Shown: in pieces, positions 1-5,612 of the stretch | Numbering within the stretch: the first letter of the stretch is position 1 | Layout of the letters: every line of letters starts with the position of its first letter | The notes under the pieces: generated by a model | Databases searched by the model: none | What the model was told of the DNA's origin: nothing | What the model saw: only the letters and a program-made list of their open reading frames with translations | From: a virus | Virus record (IMG/VR): IMGVR_UViG_3300032562_000149 | Location: 1 to 26,978 of that record | DNA: 26,978 nt | Reading direction: 5' to 3' (one strand) | Made by a program: the position numbers and the translations under genes

Positions 1-23
1 ACCCAAGGGAGAAGATCAGAAGC

Positions 24-1349
24 ATGAGCAACATCACGCTAGCCGCGCGGAACGCTGACTTGTCTGAGGTAGTAGGCATCCTCACGGAGCAGCGCGCCCG
101 CAGGCTGGACCTGGTGGTCCCCGCCAGGCACATCAGCGCGGCTGACGGCAAGATCGTCATCGCGGACAGCGAGGCTACCCAGCTGGTCACCGAAGACGGC
201 GTTTCGTCCACGGCCGGCAGCTACAAGCCCACGGCAGTGGCGCACGAGGGGCTCGGCGACAAGCTGGGCATCCCGACCGCTTACCTCAAGAAGCTGGCGG
301 AAGCCCGCACCGACCTGTACGACGCCAACGTGAACGGCATGCTCCACGGGCTCGTCTGGGACTGGTCAGGGTTCCTGGGACTGAAGCCGGATACCGAGGT
401 CACCCACGAGCCCTACGACGGCAACCTGCTGCTCCGGCTGCTCAAGGGAGACGAGTCCGACGACGGCGTGCTGCGCGCGGTGCTGTCCCCGAAGTACAAG
501 TTCATCGACAACCTCGATGTGCTGCTCGCGATCATGGACGGCATACGCAAGGCGGGTGTCAACGCCGTGCCCGGGTTCGCCGACCTGTCCGAGCGCCGGA
601 TGATCGCCCGGTTCGATGTCCCGGAGATCGCCGCGCTGGCACCCAAGCTGCTCGACGGCTACCGGTCCCCGTTCGAGGGTGCCGGGGCCGTGGAACGCGC
701 CGGGGAGGACCGCCCGGGGTACCGGCTGCGGTCCGAGTACGGGAACTGGTCGCCGGAGGCCGCCATGCGCGCCGCAGCGGCCGAGGGCCAGGGATACGAG
801 CGCGGCAAGGAGCCGGTCGTGTGGGCGGGCCTGCGGGTCAGCAACAGCGACGTCGGCGGCGGTGCCCGCACCATCACCCCGGAGATCCGCGTGAAGGTCT
901 GCAAGAACGGCCTGACGCTGATCGCCGAGGCCAGCCGCGCCGTGCACCTGGGCAGCACCCAGGCCGAGGGCGTGGTCGAGTGGAGCGCCGACACGCAGGA
1001 GAAGGAGCTGGCGCTGATCACCAGCCAGACCGTGGACGCGGTGCGGAAGTTCCTGGACCCGGACTGGTTCAGGGGACAGGTCGCTAAGATCGAGGCGCTG
1101 GCCGGCGTCCCGGTGATCAAGCCGGAAGAGACGGTCCGGGAAGTGGCGGTGGCGGCGAAGTTCACCAAGGCCGAGACTGACGGGATCCTGGAGCACTTCT
1201 TCCGGGGCGGCCAGTTCACCAGCGGCGGCGTGGCCAACGCGGTCACGAGCTACAGCCAGACCATTGAGTCGCCCGACCGGGCGGCCGAGCTGGACAGCCA
1301 GGCGGTCAGGGTCATGGAGCACGCGGCCAGGATCGGGAACCGCAGTTAG
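24..1349 (+). CDS. DUF932 phage/plasmid-like protein
   Basis: This 441-aa protein looks like the DUF932 (TIGR03299, phage/plasmid-like) family, whose biochemical role I do not know. The family-like core is seen around residues 140-180 (LLRLLKGD, then VLSPKYKFIDNLDVL) and in the segment around 270-345 with GLRVSNSDVGGGARTI, VCKNGL and a helical stretch before the RKFLDPDWF motif. Length fits the family. An AAGGGAG box lies 12 bases before the ATG, which is rather far, but no better in-frame start is visible in the window. It is by far the largest gene of the plus-strand cluster and is followed by a perfect hairpin that separates it from the small genes. The family call is from recognition of sequence pattern only. 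Confidence 0.82.
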   Translation: MSNITLAARNADLSEVVGILTEQRARRLDLVVPARHISAADGKIVIADSEATQLVTEDGVSSTAGSYKPTAVAHEGLGDKLGIPTAYLKKLAEARTDLYDANVNGMLHGLVWDWSGFLGLKPDTEVTHEPYDGNLLLRLLKGDESDDGVLRAVLSPKYKFIDNLDVLLAIMDGIRKAGVNAVPGFADLSERRMIARFDVPEIAALAPKLLDGYRSPFEGAGAVERAGEDRPGYRLRSEYGNWSPEAAMRAAAAEGQGYERGKEPVVWAGLRVSNSDVGGGARTITPEIRVKVCKNGLTLIAEASRAVHLGSTQAEGVVEWSADTQEKELALITSQTVDAVRKFLDPDWFRGQVAKIEALAGVPVIKPEETVREVAVAAKFTKAETDGILEHFFRGGQFTSGGVANAVTSYSQTIESPDRAAELDSQAVRVMEHAARIGNRS

Positions 1350-1358
1350 GTAACAGAC

Positions 1359-1408
1359 GTGAAGGCCCCGGGGTTCCATCCAGATCTCACCCCTCCCGGG
1401 GCCTTCAC
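1359..1408 (+). terminator. perfect 14-bp hairpin after the DUF932 gene
   Basis: Arms 1359-1372 and 1395-1408 are exact inverted complements (GTGAAGGCCCCGGG and its complement) with a 22-base loop. The hairpin starts 10 bases after the DUF932 stop and ends before the next gene's ribosome binding site. No T-run follows, so it may be a factor-assisted terminator, an RNA processing or stability element, or an attenuator for the genes downstream. The structure is seen directly; the function is inferred. Confidence 0.6.
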
Positions 1409-1434
1409 CCATGTACGAGGAAGGACACAGAGAG

Positions 1435-1698
1435 ATGGACGGAGGACTGGCCAGTTTCGCGATCCTGGCACGGGTGCTGAACGCCACGTTCGGCATCGAC
1501 CCGCCGATCGGCCGCGCGCAGGTGTGGGCCTGGGCCAAGCGCTGCAAGCCGACAGTGAACAAGGCCGGGGTACCGTTCCCGCAGCCCGCCGCGTCCAACA
1601 CCGACCGCAGGCGCGGCCAGCCTCATGACCTGTACAGCGTGAGCGAGGTCATCGACTGGTACCGGGGCGGCGTCCCGGACCGGCGGTGCGCGGCGTAG
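1435..1698 (+). CDS. small unknown protein, possibly DNA-binding
   Basis: This is an 87-aa protein if it starts at the ATG at 1435, which has AGGAAGG 10 bases upstream. An in-frame ATG at 1411 would add eight residues but lacks a binding site and sits just after the hairpin. The N-terminal half (ASFAILARVLNATFG and then RAQVWAWAKRC) and the C-terminal SVSEVIDWYRGG could form short helices as in small phage helix-turn-helix proteins, with a basic TDRRRGQPHD segment between them. That is a weak resemblance and I would not assign a function. It stands alone between the DUF932 hairpin and the first copy of the repeated leader motif. Confidence 0.6.
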   Translation: MDGGLASFAILARVLNATFGIDPPIGRAQVWAWAKRCKPTVNKAGVPFPQPAASNTDRRRGQPHDLYSVSEVIDWYRGGVPDRRCAA

Positions 1699-1720
1699 CG
1701 GGGAATACCCGGGCGCGCTA

Positions 1721-1737
1721 TACTGTTGACAGAAGTG
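1721..1737 (+). promoter_or_regulatory. repeated leader motif, copy 1
   Basis: TACTGTTGACAGAAGTG lies in the gap between two small genes, 40 bases before the next ATG. The same 17 bases recur at 2008-2024 and 3683-3699. A TATACT hexamer at 1719-1724 overlaps its left end and could be a -10 element, but there is no -35 box at the right distance. A GGCC-GAGA-GGCC mini-hairpin follows at about 1741-1752. The motif is seen; a role as operator or leader start is inferred. Confidence 0.5.
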
Positions 1738-1776
1738 AGAGGCCGAGAGGCCGGGAAAAGGGAGATGGATCACACG

Positions 1777-2010
1777 ATGAGCAGCTATCTGACCGCCTTC
1801 GAGAGCGGGATGCTGAACAAGCCCAGAATCGCGTACGGGCCGGCCGAGCACGACCGGACGCCGGAGCAGGACGCGGCGCTGACGGCGGAGCGCGAGGAAG
1901 AGACCCGCCAGCGGTACATAGCTGCTGACCAGGCGGCTGCCTACCGGACGTACGCGCCGAACATCCTGTTCAGCGGTGTGCGTGCCGGGGAACAGATCAG
2001 CACTCCGTAG
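1777..2010 (+). CDS. small unknown charged protein
   Basis: The protein is 77 aa from the ATG at 1777 (MSSYLTAF). AAAGGGAG at 1757-1764 is 12 bases upstream of this start; it directly abuts another ATG at 1765, which would add four residues but leaves no spacing. The middle is a charged helix (about residues 22-45, rich in Glu, Arg and Ala), followed by a short hydrophobic C-terminal part (YAPNILFSGVRAGEQ). I do not recognise a family. It is the first gene after motif copy 1, and its stop codon lies inside motif copy 2, so the leader of the next gene begins where this one ends. Confidence 0.55.
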   Translation: MSSYLTAFESGMLNKPRIAYGPAEHDRTPEQDAALTAEREEETRQRYIAADQAAAYRTYAPNILFSGVRAGEQISTP

Positions 2011-2024
2011 TGTTGACGGAAGTG
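2008..2024 (+). promoter_or_regulatory. repeated leader motif, copy 2
   Basis: TAGTGTTGACGGAAGTG differs from copies 1 and 3 at two positions. It overlaps the stop codon of the preceding gene and its last two bases begin the structured leader at 2023-2086. A weak inverted pair (CACTCCGT at 2001-2008 against ACGGAAGTG) spans it. Confidence 0.5.
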
Positions 2025-2086
2025 ATCAGCCGGGACTGAGGGCCTGCACCGGGAGACCGGAACATCGGCGAGGCCCCGGCTGGTCA
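2023..2086 (+). ncRNA. structured 5' leader candidate
   Basis: The region can fold into a long stem: TGATCAGCCGG (2023-2033) pairs with CCGGCTGGTCA (2076-2086) over 11 bp with one G-U, then GGCCT (2041-2045) pairs with AGGCC (2071-2075), enclosing a small CCGG-GAGA-CCGG hairpin at 2050-2061. It is followed by two ribosome-binding-site-like boxes (AAAGGGA at 2090-2096 and GGGAGG at 2109-2114) before the ATG at 2125. It is too long and layered for a simple terminator. It could be a cis-regulatory leader or a processed RNA; I cannot match it to a known riboswitch class. Confidence 0.4.
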
Positions 2087-2124
2087 GCCAAAGGGAGACA
2101 GGCACAGAGGGAGGACCAGGGAAA

Positions 2125-2505
2125 ATGACACCCGACCAGGCAGTCCGCCAGATCAGGAACATCGCATTCAAGCCGGGCTGGCGTCTCGACGCCCTCGCGC
2201 TGGGTGACCGCGAGCACGTCGCGGTCACCTATTACATCGACACCGTGGACTCCAGCTACCCGGGCCTTGACGGCATCTGCCGTCGTCAGGTCACGCTGGA
2301 GCGTCCGGACATCATCGACGTCACCGGCCTGGACGAGGCGGGTCTCTGCCACCGGCTGCTCAAGCTGGCCAGTGCCGTGGACGAGCACGAGAACCGCGAG
2401 TTCATGAAGGTCCGCCAGCCGGACGGCAGCTGGGCAACCCCGCTCCACCCGCACACTGACCAGGGCAATTCGTCCTGGCGCACGCTGGAGGCCAGCGCAC
2501 GATGA
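2125..2505 (+). CDS. unknown phage protein, 126 aa
   Basis: This soluble protein opens with a helix (PDQAVRQIRNIAF), followed by alternating beta-like segments (WRLDALALG, HVAVTYYIDTVDSSYPG) and a second helical region (GLDEAGLCHRLLKLASAVDEHENREF). The pattern resembles small alpha-beta phage proteins of unknown role; I do not recognise the family. GGGAGG lies 10 bases before the ATG. Its stop overlaps the next start (ATGA), so it heads a coupled group running to about 3670. It lies directly behind the structured leader, so it is the gene most likely controlled by it. Confidence 0.72.
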   Translation: MTPDQAVRQIRNIAFKPGWRLDALALGDREHVAVTYYIDTVDSSYPGLDGICRRQVTLERPDIIDVTGLDEAGLCHRLLKLASAVDEHENREFMKVRQPDGSWATPLHPHTDQGNSSWRTLEASAR

Positions 2506-2828
2506 CGTTCTACGAGCACGAGCCCGTCACGGTCCTGGGCGAGAGCCCGGACCGTGCCGAGGCATGCATCGAGACCAAGACGGGCGTGCACCTGCACGTG
2601 CCGTTGCGCGAGCTATCGGATGTGCGCTACCCGGAAGTAGGCGTCCGGTTCCCGGTCGGCGAGCACGCCGGCACGATCATGGCAGACGTCACCGATGCGC
2701 TCAAGCGCGCCGACGCCAAGTACTCGCACATCACCGAGTGGCGGACCAGCGTTTTCGACAACACGTACGAAGAGAATTGCAAGAACGCGGGGACCTGGGT
2801 CGTGGTCAAGTGGGGAGACGAGAAGTGA
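2502..2828 (+). CDS. unknown phage protein, 108 aa
   Basis: The protein starts in an ATGA overlap with the preceding gene and ends in a GTGA overlap with the next one, which strongly supports it as real and translationally coupled. The first half is beta-like (PVTVLGESPDRAEACIETKTGVHLHVPLREL), then a helix (IMADVTDALKRADAKY), and the end (NAGTWVVVKWGDEK) looks like a terminal strand. Two cysteines are present but no metal motif. No family is recognised. Confidence 0.7.
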   Translation: MTFYEHEPVTVLGESPDRAEACIETKTGVHLHVPLRELSDVRYPEVGVRFPVGEHAGTIMADVTDALKRADAKYSHITEWRTSVFDNTYEENCKNAGTWVVVKWGDEK

Positions 2829-3106
2829 GCCAGTTCGATCGCCGGGCGGCCCTCTGGGTTGCCCGGCGGTTCCCCGGCTCGGACCCGGTGATCGGATCCG
2901 TCGAGTTCGTGATCGATGCCGCCGCGTACCCGGAAGGTGCGTATTGCGACCTCGAAGTGGCCTGGGATGACGCCAGGCCCGACTATTACCGCATCCTCGA
3001 TCAGGAGATGCCAGCCGTAGAGCGTACCGAGATCATCCAGCACGGCGCGTGGGACCACAACCTGACTGTCCTGATGCGCGAACTGGCCGACATGGAGGAT
3101 GTGTGA
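2825..3106 (+). CDS. unknown small acidic protein, GTG start
   Basis: This 93-aa protein begins with GTG at 2825, overlapping the previous stop, with GGGGAGA about 6 bases upstream. A much longer open frame extends upstream to 2564, but that part is an Arg-rich shadow of the preceding gene. The real product begins with SQFDRRAALWVARRFPG, has central strands (SVEFVIDAAAYPEGAYCDLEVAWD) and ends with an acidic helix (NLTVLMRELADMEDV). Function unknown. It shares its last base with the next ATG (TGATG). Confidence 0.68.
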   Translation: MSQFDRRAALWVARRFPGSDPVIGSVEFVIDAAAYPEGAYCDLEVAWDDARPDYYRILDQEMPAVERTEIIQHGAWDHNLTVLMRELADMEDV

Positions 3107-3438
3107 TGAGGTACCTGTACCCCGCGAGGTACGGGACGAGCTGGCCAGGTAACCAGCCAGGCGTCCGGCACTGGCTCGTCATCCCGCTGTTCTTCCGGGT
3201 CAGCGTGCTCCGGCTGCTGTTCCTCTGGCTGCCGCTGGCGCTGGTCCTGGGGTTCACCTGGGCGGTAGCCGAGTTCTGGATCCTGGTCGCCTGCGGTATC
3301 GTGCTGGCGCTCAAGGTAGCCGAGGGCTGGGGTCCGCACCTGGACTGGGCAGCTATTCACTGGGAGCCGTGGGGGCATGTCTTCGCGGCGCTGATCGTAC
3401 CACCGAGGGAGACGGGCAAGCATGCACGACGAGACTGA
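3106..3438 (+). CDS. small membrane protein, two helices
   Basis: This 110-aa protein starts at the ATG overlapping the preceding stop, with GGAGG about 8 bases upstream. Two adjacent hydrophobic segments (about residues 34-53 and 55-71, LLFLWLPLALVLGF then FWILVACGIVLAL) are flanked by a basic, aromatic N-terminus (YPARYGTSW) and a C-terminal tail ending KHARRD. The topology is compatible with an inner-membrane hairpin. It could be a holin-like or host-membrane-modifying protein, but it lies far from the endolysin and on the other strand, so no function is claimed. Its last 17 bases overlap the next gene. Confidence 0.68.
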   Translation: MRYLYPARYGTSWPGNQPGVRHWLVIPLFFRVSVLRLLFLWLPLALVLGFTWAVAEFWILVACGIVLALKVAEGWGPHLDWAAIHWEPWGHVFAALIVPPRETGKHARRD

Positions 3439-3670
3439 GATAGCCCGCAGGGCGATGGTCCTGTCCGGCCAGCCGCGCCAGGACCTGAGCACCGCTGCCG
3501 TCAAGGGCGAGCAGACCTGGGACACCGGGGAGATGCAGGCCGAGTTCGAGGTGCTGGATTTCGTGGCACCGTTCGTGGTCGTCCGGCGCAGGAGTGACGG
3601 CGCACTGGGCAGCCTGGAATTCACGCACATGCCAAGAACGTATTTCGGCTGGCGGGAGCACGAGGAATAA
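3422..3670 (+). CDS. unknown phage protein, 82 aa
   Basis: The protein starts inside the 3' end of the membrane-protein gene, with GAGGGAGACGGG upstream. It has an N-terminal helix (ETEIARRAMVLSG) and then beta-like segments (AEFEVLDFVAPFVVVRRRSDGALGSLEFTHM), ending FGWREHEE. The second half resembles a small barrel-type fold, such as the SH3-like domains often found in phage accessory proteins, but I recognise no specific family. It is the last gene of the first coupled group; motif copy 3 and its hairpin follow 7 bases later. Confidence 0.62.
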   Translation: MHDETEIARRAMVLSGQPRQDLSTAAVKGEQTWDTGEMQAEFEVLDFVAPFVVVRRRSDGALGSLEFTHMPRTYFGWREHEE

Positions 3671-3676
3671 TCCCGA

Positions 3677-3707
3677 GCCCCGTACTGTTGACAGAAGTGT
3701 ACGGGGC
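3677..3707 (+). promoter_or_regulatory. perfect 9-bp hairpin with the repeated motif as loop
   Basis: GCCCCGTAC (3677-3685) and GTACGGGGC (3699-3707) are exact complements, and the 13-base loop TGTTGACAGAAGT is the core of the repeated leader motif (copy 3, 3683-3699). The structure sits between two coupled gene groups, 7 bases after one stop and 31 before the next ATG. It could terminate the first group, act as an operator, or expose the motif to a protein or RNA partner. Only this copy has strong flanking arms. Confidence 0.5.
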
Positions 3708-3737
3708 AAAGGGAACCACGTGTAAGGGAGACAGGCG

Positions 3738-3956
3738 ATGAGCAAGATCACCGAGGCAGTGCCCGGCAGTGATTTCGACCTGCTGGATGCGCTGATCGGG
3801 CTCGATGAGGGCACGCTAGGCGAAGATCAGGAGACCGAGCTGTTCCAGTACCTGGTTGACAGCGGACTGGCGTGGCGGCTCCAGGGACGGATCGGCCGCC
3901 AGGCGGCTGACATGATAGAGGCAGGCGTGATCACGCCGCCGGAGGGAGACAGGTAA
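3738..3956 (+). CDS. DUF7417-like small phage protein
   Basis: This is a 72-aa protein with AAGGGAG 7 bases before the ATG. The segment ETELFQYLVDSGLAWRLQG followed by IGRQAADMIEAGVI closely resembles the small actinophage proteins with an LFQ.LVD.G.AW.LQG..GR.A..LI..G pattern (DUF7417 as I remember it); the function of these is unknown to me. The acidic N-terminal part is poorly conserved in character. It heads the second coupled group; its stop overlaps the next start by one base (TAATG). Confidence 0.7.
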   Translation: MSKITEAVPGSDFDLLDALIGLDEGTLGEDQETELFQYLVDSGLAWRLQGRIGRQAADMIEAGVITPPEGDR

Positions 3957-4345
3957 TGGCTGGATATGAGTTCGAGCCGGGTCAGAAGGTCGAGACCCGG
4001 TACGGCAGCCGGTGGATGCCGCGCACGGTCCGGGCACTGACCAGCAACATGGTTACCTTCGAGGAAGGCGGATTCGCGGACAAGACCCGGGTGCGCCCGG
4101 TGCCGGAAGTCCGGCCGCTGGCCGTGATCGCGCAGGACATCCTGGACCACTGGGCCAGCGTCTACTTCGGCGCGGTGCCCTACCTGGAGGCGATGGGCCG
4201 GCTGGACAAGATCACCGACATGTACGGCGCGGACGACGCCGAGTCGATCGTGATGTACTTCCTGTCCAACGCCACCGGCTGGCGCGGCCCGGATGCCCGC
4301 CGGATCAAGGCCGAGCTGAAGAGCATGCTCAAGGCGGCGAAATGA
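3956..4345 (+). CDS. unknown phage protein with SH3-like N-terminus
   Basis: The 129-aa product has a short beta-rich N-terminal domain (residues 1-50: YEFEPGQKVETRYGSRWMPRTV and MVTFEEGGFADKTRVRPV) that looks like an SH3 or Tudor-like barrel. The C-terminal part is helical (about 55-129), with AVPYLEAMGRLDKITDMYG and SNATGWRGPDARRIKAELK. Similar helical segments occur in small actinophage proteins of unknown function. The gene overlaps both neighbours (TAATG and ATGA). A nucleic-acid or protein-binding adaptor is possible but unproven. Confidence 0.68.
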   Translation: MAGYEFEPGQKVETRYGSRWMPRTVRALTSNMVTFEEGGFADKTRVRPVPEVRPLAVIAQDILDHWASVYFGAVPYLEAMGRLDKITDMYGADDAESIVMYFLSNATGWRGPDARRIKAELKSMLKAAK

Positions 4346-4614
4346 GGACGTTCAATATGAGAGACGGCGGCCAGTTCACCCGCGACACCATCGAGGCCGC
4401 GCTGAGCAGCCACCAGTCGGCGAAGCTGATCAGGGAGTGGCAGCGCGCCCCGCACAGCTTCTCCGGCATCCTGCACTACCCGGTGTTCATCGTGACCCTG
4501 GCGGACGGCAAGCACCTGGAGCTGGCGACTATGTGGGAAGCCCACGCGTTCGTCGCCGGCCTGGCCAGTGCCAGGCACGCGTACGAGCACCAGTTCGCAT
4601 TGAGAAAGTCATGA
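4342..4614 (+). CDS. unknown phage protein, 90 aa
   Basis: The frame is open from 4012, but the correct start is the ATG at 4342 in an ATGA overlap with the preceding gene; upstream codons are a Gly/Arg/Asp-rich shadow. The protein has an N-terminal helix (FTRDTIEAALSSHQSAKLIREWQR), a beta pair (GILHYPVFIVTLADGKHLELAT) and a C-terminal helix (MWEAHAFVAGLASARHAYEHQF). It is soluble and slightly basic. No family recognised. It ends in an ATGA overlap with the following membrane-protein gene. Confidence 0.65.
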   Translation: MRTFNMRDGGQFTRDTIEAALSSHQSAKLIREWQRAPHSFSGILHYPVFIVTLADGKHLELATMWEAHAFVAGLASARHAYEHQFALRKS

Positions 4615-4832
4615 ACATCAGATGGGTTCTCTGGGTGTACCGGCAGATCACGCTCAAGTCCTGGATCGTGGCGATCCTCTGGATGGTCGTGGCGTTCGGC
4701 GCGCTGCACGGCACCGGCCGGTACTGGTTTCTCGGCGGCGCGGCGTTCTTCCTGGCCGGCGGCTGGTTCGAGGCTAGGTACGACCGGCGGAAGCGTCAGG
4801 AGCAGCGGTCACGGGCAGGCACCCGGTCATAG
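4611..4832 (+). CDS. small membrane protein, holin-like topology
   Basis: This is a 73-aa protein coupled by ATGA to the gene before it. Two predicted membrane helices (about residues 16-33, SWIVAILWMVVAFGALHG, and 37-52) are joined by a short GTGRYW turn and followed by a strongly basic tail (ARYDRRKRQEQRSR). Size, two helices and charged C-terminus are the general features of class II holins, and it lies only about 230 bases from the endolysin, but on the opposite strand. It may therefore be a holin, a host membrane effector, or neither. It is the last plus-strand gene, ending 13 bases before the convergent hairpin. Confidence 0.65.
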   Translation: MNIRWVLWVYRQITLKSWIVAILWMVVAFGALHGTGRYWFLGGAAFFLAGGWFEARYDRRKRQEQRSRAGTRS

Positions 4833-5061
4833 GGTCAGATCCCGGCGCGGGCACAGGAACATCCTGTGCCCGCGCATCGCGTTGCCTGTCAAGCGACCAC
4901 AGGCCGCGCGGGTTCAGCAGGTCGAGCACGTGACTGACACTGACATGGACGTCCTGGCCCCGGCCGCTCGCGGCATAGCCCTGGAGCATGCCGCGTACCC
5001 GGGCGATCGTCTCGGCGTTCTCCAGTGCCCGCTGATCGGCGGCTGACCTGCGCAGTCCCAT
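4774..5061 (-). CDS. small unknown protein after the endolysin
   Basis: This 95-aa frame starts at an ATG overlapping the endolysin stop by one base (TGATG), the coupling style of this operon. Its N-terminal two thirds have a charged helix (SAADQRALENAETIARVRGMLQGYAA) and a short hydrophobic stretch (VHVSVSHVLDLL). The last third is low-complexity and is encoded across the convergent hairpin at 4845-4875 and antisense to the end of the plus-strand membrane-protein gene. No membrane segment, so it is not a holin. Either the gene is real and ends in overlapped sequence, or only the first part is meaningful. Confidence 0.48.
   Translation of the reverse strand: MGLRRSAADQRALENAETIARVRGMLQGYAASGRGQDVHVSVSHVLDLLNPRGLWSLDRQRDARAQDVPVPAPGSDPMTGCLPVTAAPDASAGRT
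4845..4875. terminator. perfect 14-bp convergent hairpin
   Basis: GCGCGGGCACAGGA (4845-4858) and its exact complement (4862-4875) are separated by only three bases. The hairpin lies 13 bases after the last plus-strand stop and at the end of the minus-strand late genes, the expected place for a bidirectional terminator. There is no T-run on either side, as is common in high-GC actinobacterial terminators. Structure seen; function inferred. Confidence 0.7.
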
Positions 5062-5612
5062 CAGTGCCTCGGGCCGACCCCGCCGCGCTGGAACAGCCAC
5101 TCGTCCACGACCGAGAGGTCGATCTCGGTGCCGCCGAACGCGACGTCAGCGGCGTACTGATGGCCGTGGATGCCCCCGGACGGCAGGGTGTCCTCGCCGT
5201 TGTATGCCGCGACCCAGTTGTTGGTCGCCTTGTTCGCGAGGATCGTGCTGGCCGATCCGTAGGCTATCGCGAAGAAGCCCTCGGTGTTGATCTGGACAGC
5301 CCAGCTGTGGTACCACTCCGGTATCTTAAGGGTTTCGAGGTCGCAGATGATGCCCCGCTGCGCGATCACGTCATGCGCCTCCCAGCCGAGCGCGACGGCC
5401 GCCGCAGCCGCTTCCCTGGCGTTGTCCGCCGGGTTCTCGGTACCGTACGGCACCCAGCACGGGAACTGGTGCAGGCTGGCGAACCGCTGCCAGTTCTCCA
5501 GGGTCCAGGTCCGGTAGGCGCGAGCGCCGCCGATGTACCCGAGCACGCCGGTACAGCCAGCCGGGGCCTTTGCGGGAGGCGTGGCCGCGTCGAACACGTG
5601 AGAGAGCGTCAT
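5061..5612 (-). CDS. endolysin candidate, glycoside-hydrolase-like (DUF1906/GH25-type fold)
   Basis: The 183-aa protein has the layout of a small TIM-barrel glycoside-hydrolase-like domain (the DUF1906/Rv2525c-like group or GH25-related lysozymes). An Asp sits near the N-terminus (D8), with GYIGG at 25-29, an IICDLET strand carrying D91 and E93 as likely acidic active-site residues, AIAYGS at 115-120, NWVAAYNG at 132-139, GHQYAAD at 150-156 and EIDLSVVD at 163-170. It would cut peptidoglycan glycan strands for host lysis. It has no signal peptide and no separate wall-binding domain, so it needs a holin or a leaky route. It lies at the end of the tail genes, 25 bases after the preceding stop; the ATG at 5612 has no strong binding site. 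Confidence 0.72.
   Translation of the reverse strand: MTLSHVFDAATPPAKAPAGCTGVLGYIGGARAYRTWTLENWQRFASLHQFPCWVPYGTENPADNAREAAAAAVALGWEAHDVIAQRGIICDLETLKIPEWYHSWAVQINTEGFFAIAYGSASTILANKATNNWVAAYNGEDTLPSGGIHGHQYAADVAFGGTEIDLSVVDEWLFQRGGVGPRH

Follow-up and report, generated by a model that had tools for sequence, protein, structure and literature searches.

The stretch of DNA analysed here, hereafter the window, is a linear IMG/VR virus record of 26,978 nucleotides in which large structural-looking open reading frames (ORFs) occupy the minus strand and small genes the plus strand. Its major capsid protein is 34-40% identical to capsid proteins that come mostly from actinophages. Among isolated phages its nearest relative, at 40%, is the capsid protein of PP395638.1 (L196), a phage recorded as infecting Microcystis; as the family is otherwise one of actinophages, this host record may merit checking. 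A near megablast of the window against isolated phages returned no match, and no tRNA genes, sought as a clue to the host, were found. The plus-strand genes of interest form a single short ORF and two small operons (Table 1). The last ORF of the first operon (3422-3670) shares 51% identity with a gene of the operon behind the corresponding element of another viral contig, G003, and the DUF7417 protein that opens the second operon is found in Streptomyces and Rhodococcus phages too. Upstream of these genes, an ORF at 1411-1698 belongs to a family of 95-110 aa (A3; 38% identity in the alignment with L072:1001-1333, minus strand) that turned up nowhere but in the window and a further contig, G001; each of the two has the element described below. 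The family has no recognisable domain and was rejected as a common regulator. A long G+C-rich inverted repeat (GAAGGCCCCGGG...CCCGGGGCCTTC, 1360-1406) lies between an ORF end at 1349 and the ORF start at 1411, and is terminator-like but lacks a T run.

A preliminary description of this DNA had drawn attention to a 17-base motif, TA(C/G)TGTTGAC(A/G)GAAGTG, repeated in the leaders of small genes. Its three plus-strand copies were recovered exactly where they had been placed, at 1721-1737, 2008-2024 and 3683-3699, against 0.08 copies expected, and none of 100 shuffled sequences reached three. No fourth copy was found on either strand of the window with up to three mismatches, which agrees with the earlier remark that the late operon is devoid of the motif and disposes of the concern that it might occur at random elsewhere in the contig. 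The motif proved to be only the right (downstream) half of a larger element, since a GGAA(T/C)A box stands upstream of each copy, always exactly 17 nt before GTT. The full element thus reads GGAAYA-N17-GTTGAC(A/G)GAAGTG, and the three elements are the only matches to GGAAY-N17..19-GTTGAC in the 27-kb contig (0.04 expected). All three lie in, or border, intergenic leaders: the 17-mer of element 1 is located 3' of the upstream stop at 1698; element 2 reaches back into the 3' end of the preceding ORF, whose stop codon is the TAG of its 17-mer; and the stop codon of the ORF preceding element 3 falls within its GGAATAA. The distance from the end of GTT to the ATG of the next plus-strand gene is 49 nt (1777), 110 nt (2125) and 48 nt (3738), which bears out the assignment of the copies to leaders. 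Element 3 is also flanked by an inverted repeat of 8-9 bp (CCCCGTAC/GTACGGGG, 3679-3706).

Table 1. Two-box elements in the window and the genes that follow them.
Feature	Position	Strand	Details
Element 1	1702..1737	+	-35 GGAATA 1702-1707, 17-nt spacer, -10 GTT 1725-1727, tail GACAGAAGTG to 1737 (-35 and -10 as predicted)
77-aa ORF downstream of element 1	1777..2010	+	begins 49 nt downstream of GTT; matches no family
Element 2	1989..2024	+	-35 GGAACA 1989-1994, 17-nt spacer, -10 GTT 2012-2014, tail to 2024 (-35 and -10 as predicted)
Small-ORF operon downstream of element 2	2125..3670	+	2125-2505, 2502-2828, 2825-3106, 3106-3438, 3422-3670
Element 3	3664..3699	+	-35 GGAATA 3664-3669, 17-nt spacer, -10 GTT 3687-3689, tail to 3699 (-35 and -10 as predicted)
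Operon downstream of element 3	3738..4345	+	DUF7417 protein 3738-3956, then 3956-4345

SigR and SigH are actinobacterial ECF sigma factors for thiol-oxidative and heat stress; trxB is a classic SigR target, and trxB and small heat-shock genes are members of SigR/SigH-type regulons. The Streptomyces SigR promoter consensus is GGAAT-N18-19-GTT (PMC9205884). In C. glutamicum the SigH consensus is gGGAAta / (t/c)GTTgaa, the trxB1 promoter reads GGAATA-N17-GTT, and at the -35 position SigE takes GGAAC whereas SigH accepts either base (PMC10012870). The window elements have the GGAAT or GGAAC of this class (GGAATA, GGAACA and GGAATA, respectively), and GTT follows GGAAY at 18 nt, within the 18-19 nt of the class, in all three as well as in five canonical copies from related contigs. 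All three occupy leader positions, and their architecture is identical to that of actinobacterial trxB promoters. The phage element shares with the SigR promoters of Streptomyces and the SigH promoters of Corynebacterium and Mycobacterium a -35 box GGAAT/C, the 18-nt spacing, a -10 box GTT(G/GA), a gene close by and an actinobacterial setting; unlike these host promoters, it precedes small genes of unknown function and has an additional conserved stretch, the tail CAGAAGTG, across the region where transcription would start.

This likeness was checked independently on the 30 Actinomycetes trxB loci retrieved, all of which (30/30) have GGAA(T/C)-N18/19-GTT before or at the trxB start, compared with 1/30 for the complementary strand of these regions. 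When a weight matrix built solely from these host trxB promoters was run over both strands, the window copies ranked 2nd, 3rd and 5th of all positions and the G001 copies were the top matches of their loci; the G003 copy scored low. In addition, a blind scan of about 85,000 prokaryote genomes in GTDB with the phage element yielded 31 matches, a count that is itself near chance level, the telling part being their location. Three matches were actinobacterial: one upstream of trxB in Arthrobacter (L098), one upstream of hsp20 in Amycolatopsis (L106), both gene names resting on a reading of the translations, and L107. About 10 of the 31 were discarded as promoters, as they look, from codon reading, like antisense methionine aminopeptidase coding sequence.

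We consider it probable, at roughly 0.7, that each window copy is an ECF promoter of the SigR/SigH class, most likely read by the host's own SigR/SigH-like factor. The TTGAC(A/G) centre of the motif, previously equated with a -35 hexamer, is on this reading no -35 box at all, its GTT corresponding to the ECF -10 box and the -35 box, GGAAYA, starting 23 nt upstream.

Scanning 2.9 million viral contigs (IMG/VR) with the two-box pattern returned 48 stretches. Among those with a GC content above 0.55, only G001 (35 kb) and G003 (24 kb) have GTTGACAGAAGTG or a one-base variant of it in leaders, the remaining high-GC stretches offering the bare pattern only. G001 contains four copies of the element, all on a single strand and in a small-gene region that comes after a block encoding DNA polymerase and helicase, and G003 contains one canonical copy. 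In the window and these two contigs, every TGACAGAAGTG site (up to one mismatch) is tied to GGAAYA-N17-GTT, eight times in the canonical register (three in the window and five in G001 and G003); in a second G003 copy the tail box is shifted about 13 nt downstream relative to a separate GGAATA-N17-GTT. Between copies the boxes are 91% and 95% identical as against 41% for the spacer and 30% for the downstream region, a contrast which suggests that selection maintains the two boxes. The element is thus conserved in three contigs with little else in common, the window sharing one 82-aa family with G003 (51% identity) and one 95-aa family with G001. Flanking inverted repeats of differing sequence were also observed at G001 and G003 copies.

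Beyond these contigs, the 17-mer by itself occurs in 14 other viral stretches; those read in context are of low GC and lack the upstream GGAAY box, and for this reason the 17-mer-only stretches were treated as background. The element was not found in the phages that share single genes with the window (G002/L066, L127-L130), and none was seen in the stretches read of phiC31, R4, phiScoe3, Megan and Mwe-JY05. The expectation that leaders of related phages would carry the motif therefore holds for two other phage contigs and fails for phages sharing one gene. Relaxed tail patterns disclosed no further clear members in the IMG/VR scan. Among the matches listed for a pattern retaining only GTTGACAG there is at least one probable member, L302, in which GGAATA-N17-GTTGACAGAGACG, with a differing tail (AGACG), precedes a small gene (minus strand, ~622-586), and which has proteins in common with both G001 and G003. 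L302 is a probable fourth phage with the element, although the match there extends over the end of an ORF and may be due to chance.

Among the phages, conservation of the tail that follows GTTGA (CAGAAGTG) equals that of the -10 box, which is not so in host promoters: downstream of GTT, host trxB promoters agree mainly on one G, and a near-full element was present in 1/395 Actinomycetes genomes, namely the one at the centre of that search. Because the tail covers the position where transcription is expected to begin and has moved downstream in the second G003 copy, we regard it as a second module. It probably serves as another protein-binding site, for a repressor or an activator, or, in G001, forms part of the sigma-A -35 box of an overlapping dual promoter; its most natural reading is an operator. 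A sigma-A -10 hexamer lies exactly 18 nt from TTGACA in two of the four G001 copies (TAGTCT and TATTCT), which may be dual promoters with TTGACA doubling as the sigma-A -35 box. A fifth G001 site, of the form TTGACAGAATGT (CCGTTGACAGAATGT; L071 ~18450, minus strand), has no GGAAY and shows TAGCAT 19 nt downstream of TTGACA; it may be a sigma-A promoter that has the motif in common with the elements. These G001 sites are what would favour taking the element at large for a sigma-A promoter, with TTGACA as -35 and GGAAYA as an upstream activator box. We judge this very unlikely, since a -10-like hexamer at 16-19 nt is missing from all window copies and from the first G003 copy. The earlier observation that the window copies have no -10 box at the right distance downstream stands, with no TANNNT at 16-19 nt from TTGAC(A/G); on this ground a sigma-70 promoter was rejected for the window copies, and none was found in window positions 1-5200.

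The preliminary description had offered three explanations for the motif: an operator for a phage repressor, a promoter for a phage-specific factor, or an RNA element. The promoter for a specific factor fares best, with the amendment that the factor is most likely the host's stress sigma. Since three phages that have few genes in common all use a sequence equal to the host consensus, the simplest candidate for its recognition is a SigR/SigH-like factor of the host. The same fact counts against assigning the ECF-type promoter to a phage-encoded sigma factor whose gene would lie beyond the incomplete contigs and whose specificity would include the tail, an arrangement that we hold to be rather unlikely even though the tail is phage-specific, all contigs are fragments, and proteins annotated as sigma factors exist in R4, Megan and phiC31 (gp12). 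Searches of the window, G001, G002 and G003 revealed no sigma region 2, and those of the window and G003 no region 4; the region-4 matches obtained were weak and came from R4 and from a GntR-type regulator encoded by G001; moreover, the small annotated sigma factors of R4 and Megan, each of which shares a gene with the window, have no Pfam support. A lead to an ECF sigma factor of phage phiJoe was dropped, being only a reference-list entry.

The operator-stoperator of phage L5 is an asymmetric site of about 13 bp with a TTGACA core (CTTGACA on one strand), and it has been suggested that the motif shares this core. The tail does resemble L5 and cluster A sites in its asymmetry, in a TTGACA core that agrees with their consensus and in its single orientation relative to transcription, a property reported for those sites (PMC9283540). 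One could accordingly take the two boxes for the bipartite site of a phage repressor or activator, with GTTGACAGAAGTG as an L5-stoperator-like operator and the ECF likeness accidental, and the 13-nt displacement of the tail box relative to GTT in the second G003 copy would fit such an arrangement. The agreement with L5 ends at the core, as the right half of the motif, GAAGTG, differs from the outer half of the 13-bp consensus, and the motif is always linked to a second box at fixed spacing. In addition, L5 sites extend through the late genes, whereas the late-operon part of the window, an incomplete genome, has no copies; no repressor was recognised among the left-arm genes scanned, nor a repressor-like gene identified on the contig; and a sequence and spacing equal to the trxB promoter in 30/30 hosts are unlikely to be accidental. 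As an account of the whole element this is quite unlikely, and we keep the notion of an operator for the AGAAGTG tail. A further parallel is the leader element of the Streptomyces phage phiC31, CGGGTTGCCGACTCCCTTAC, likewise about 20 nt long, present in many early-gene leaders of an actinophage and in a single orientation; it differs from the window motif in sequence, in having no GGAAY 18 nt upstream, and in that phiC31 has no TGACAGAAG copies before genes. In L313 (phiC31), CGGGTTGCCGACTCCCTTAC was seen upstream of genes 2, 9a, 11, 12, 13 and 25. Finally, an RNA hairpin presenting a conserved loop in the leaders might be invoked on account of the inverted repeats of different sequences that flank several copies (CCCCGTAC...GTACGGGG at element 3) and of a weak dyad excess (post hoc test, with p between ~0.005 and 0.06 according to which control was used). 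Element 1 and the second G001 copy have no dyad, transcription is predicted to start within the motif itself, and an RNA structure would leave the promoter-like, fixed-spacing upstream box unexplained. A known RNA family is ruled out by the lack of any Rfam match at gathering score over the whole window. We therefore regard this last explanation as extremely unlikely.

According to the preferred reading, that of a SigR/SigH-class promoter used by the host's own factor, GGAAYA would serve as the -35 box and GTT(GA), exactly 18 nt after GGAAY, as the -10 box, and transcription would start a few nucleotides downstream of the latter, within or just past AGAAGTG, the transcript leading to expression of the small gene or operon. 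The reader would be an actinobacterial SigR/SigH-like sigma factor freed from its redox-sensitive anti-sigma factor upon thiol-oxidative or heat stress, and the phage units would thereby be tied to the state of the cell. More broadly, and tentatively, we suggest that a set of soil actinophages with little gene sharing place several small gene units on host thiol-oxidative-stress ECF promoters, with a conserved phage operator fused to the -10/start region, such that their expression senses redox stress.

Phages mostly rely on the housekeeping sigma factor or on a polymerase or sigma factor of their own. In the open-access literature searched, no actinophage gene was described as having a SigR/SigH-type promoter. 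It is probable that the soil phage studied here, and no fewer than two others that differ from it in most respects, place groups of small genes under a stress-response transcription factor of the host. If true, this would link the timing of phage genes to a well-studied redox switch, raise the question of whether thiol stress or loss of the host SigR alters the course of infection, and make the regulation of unknown small phage genes predictable from sequence.
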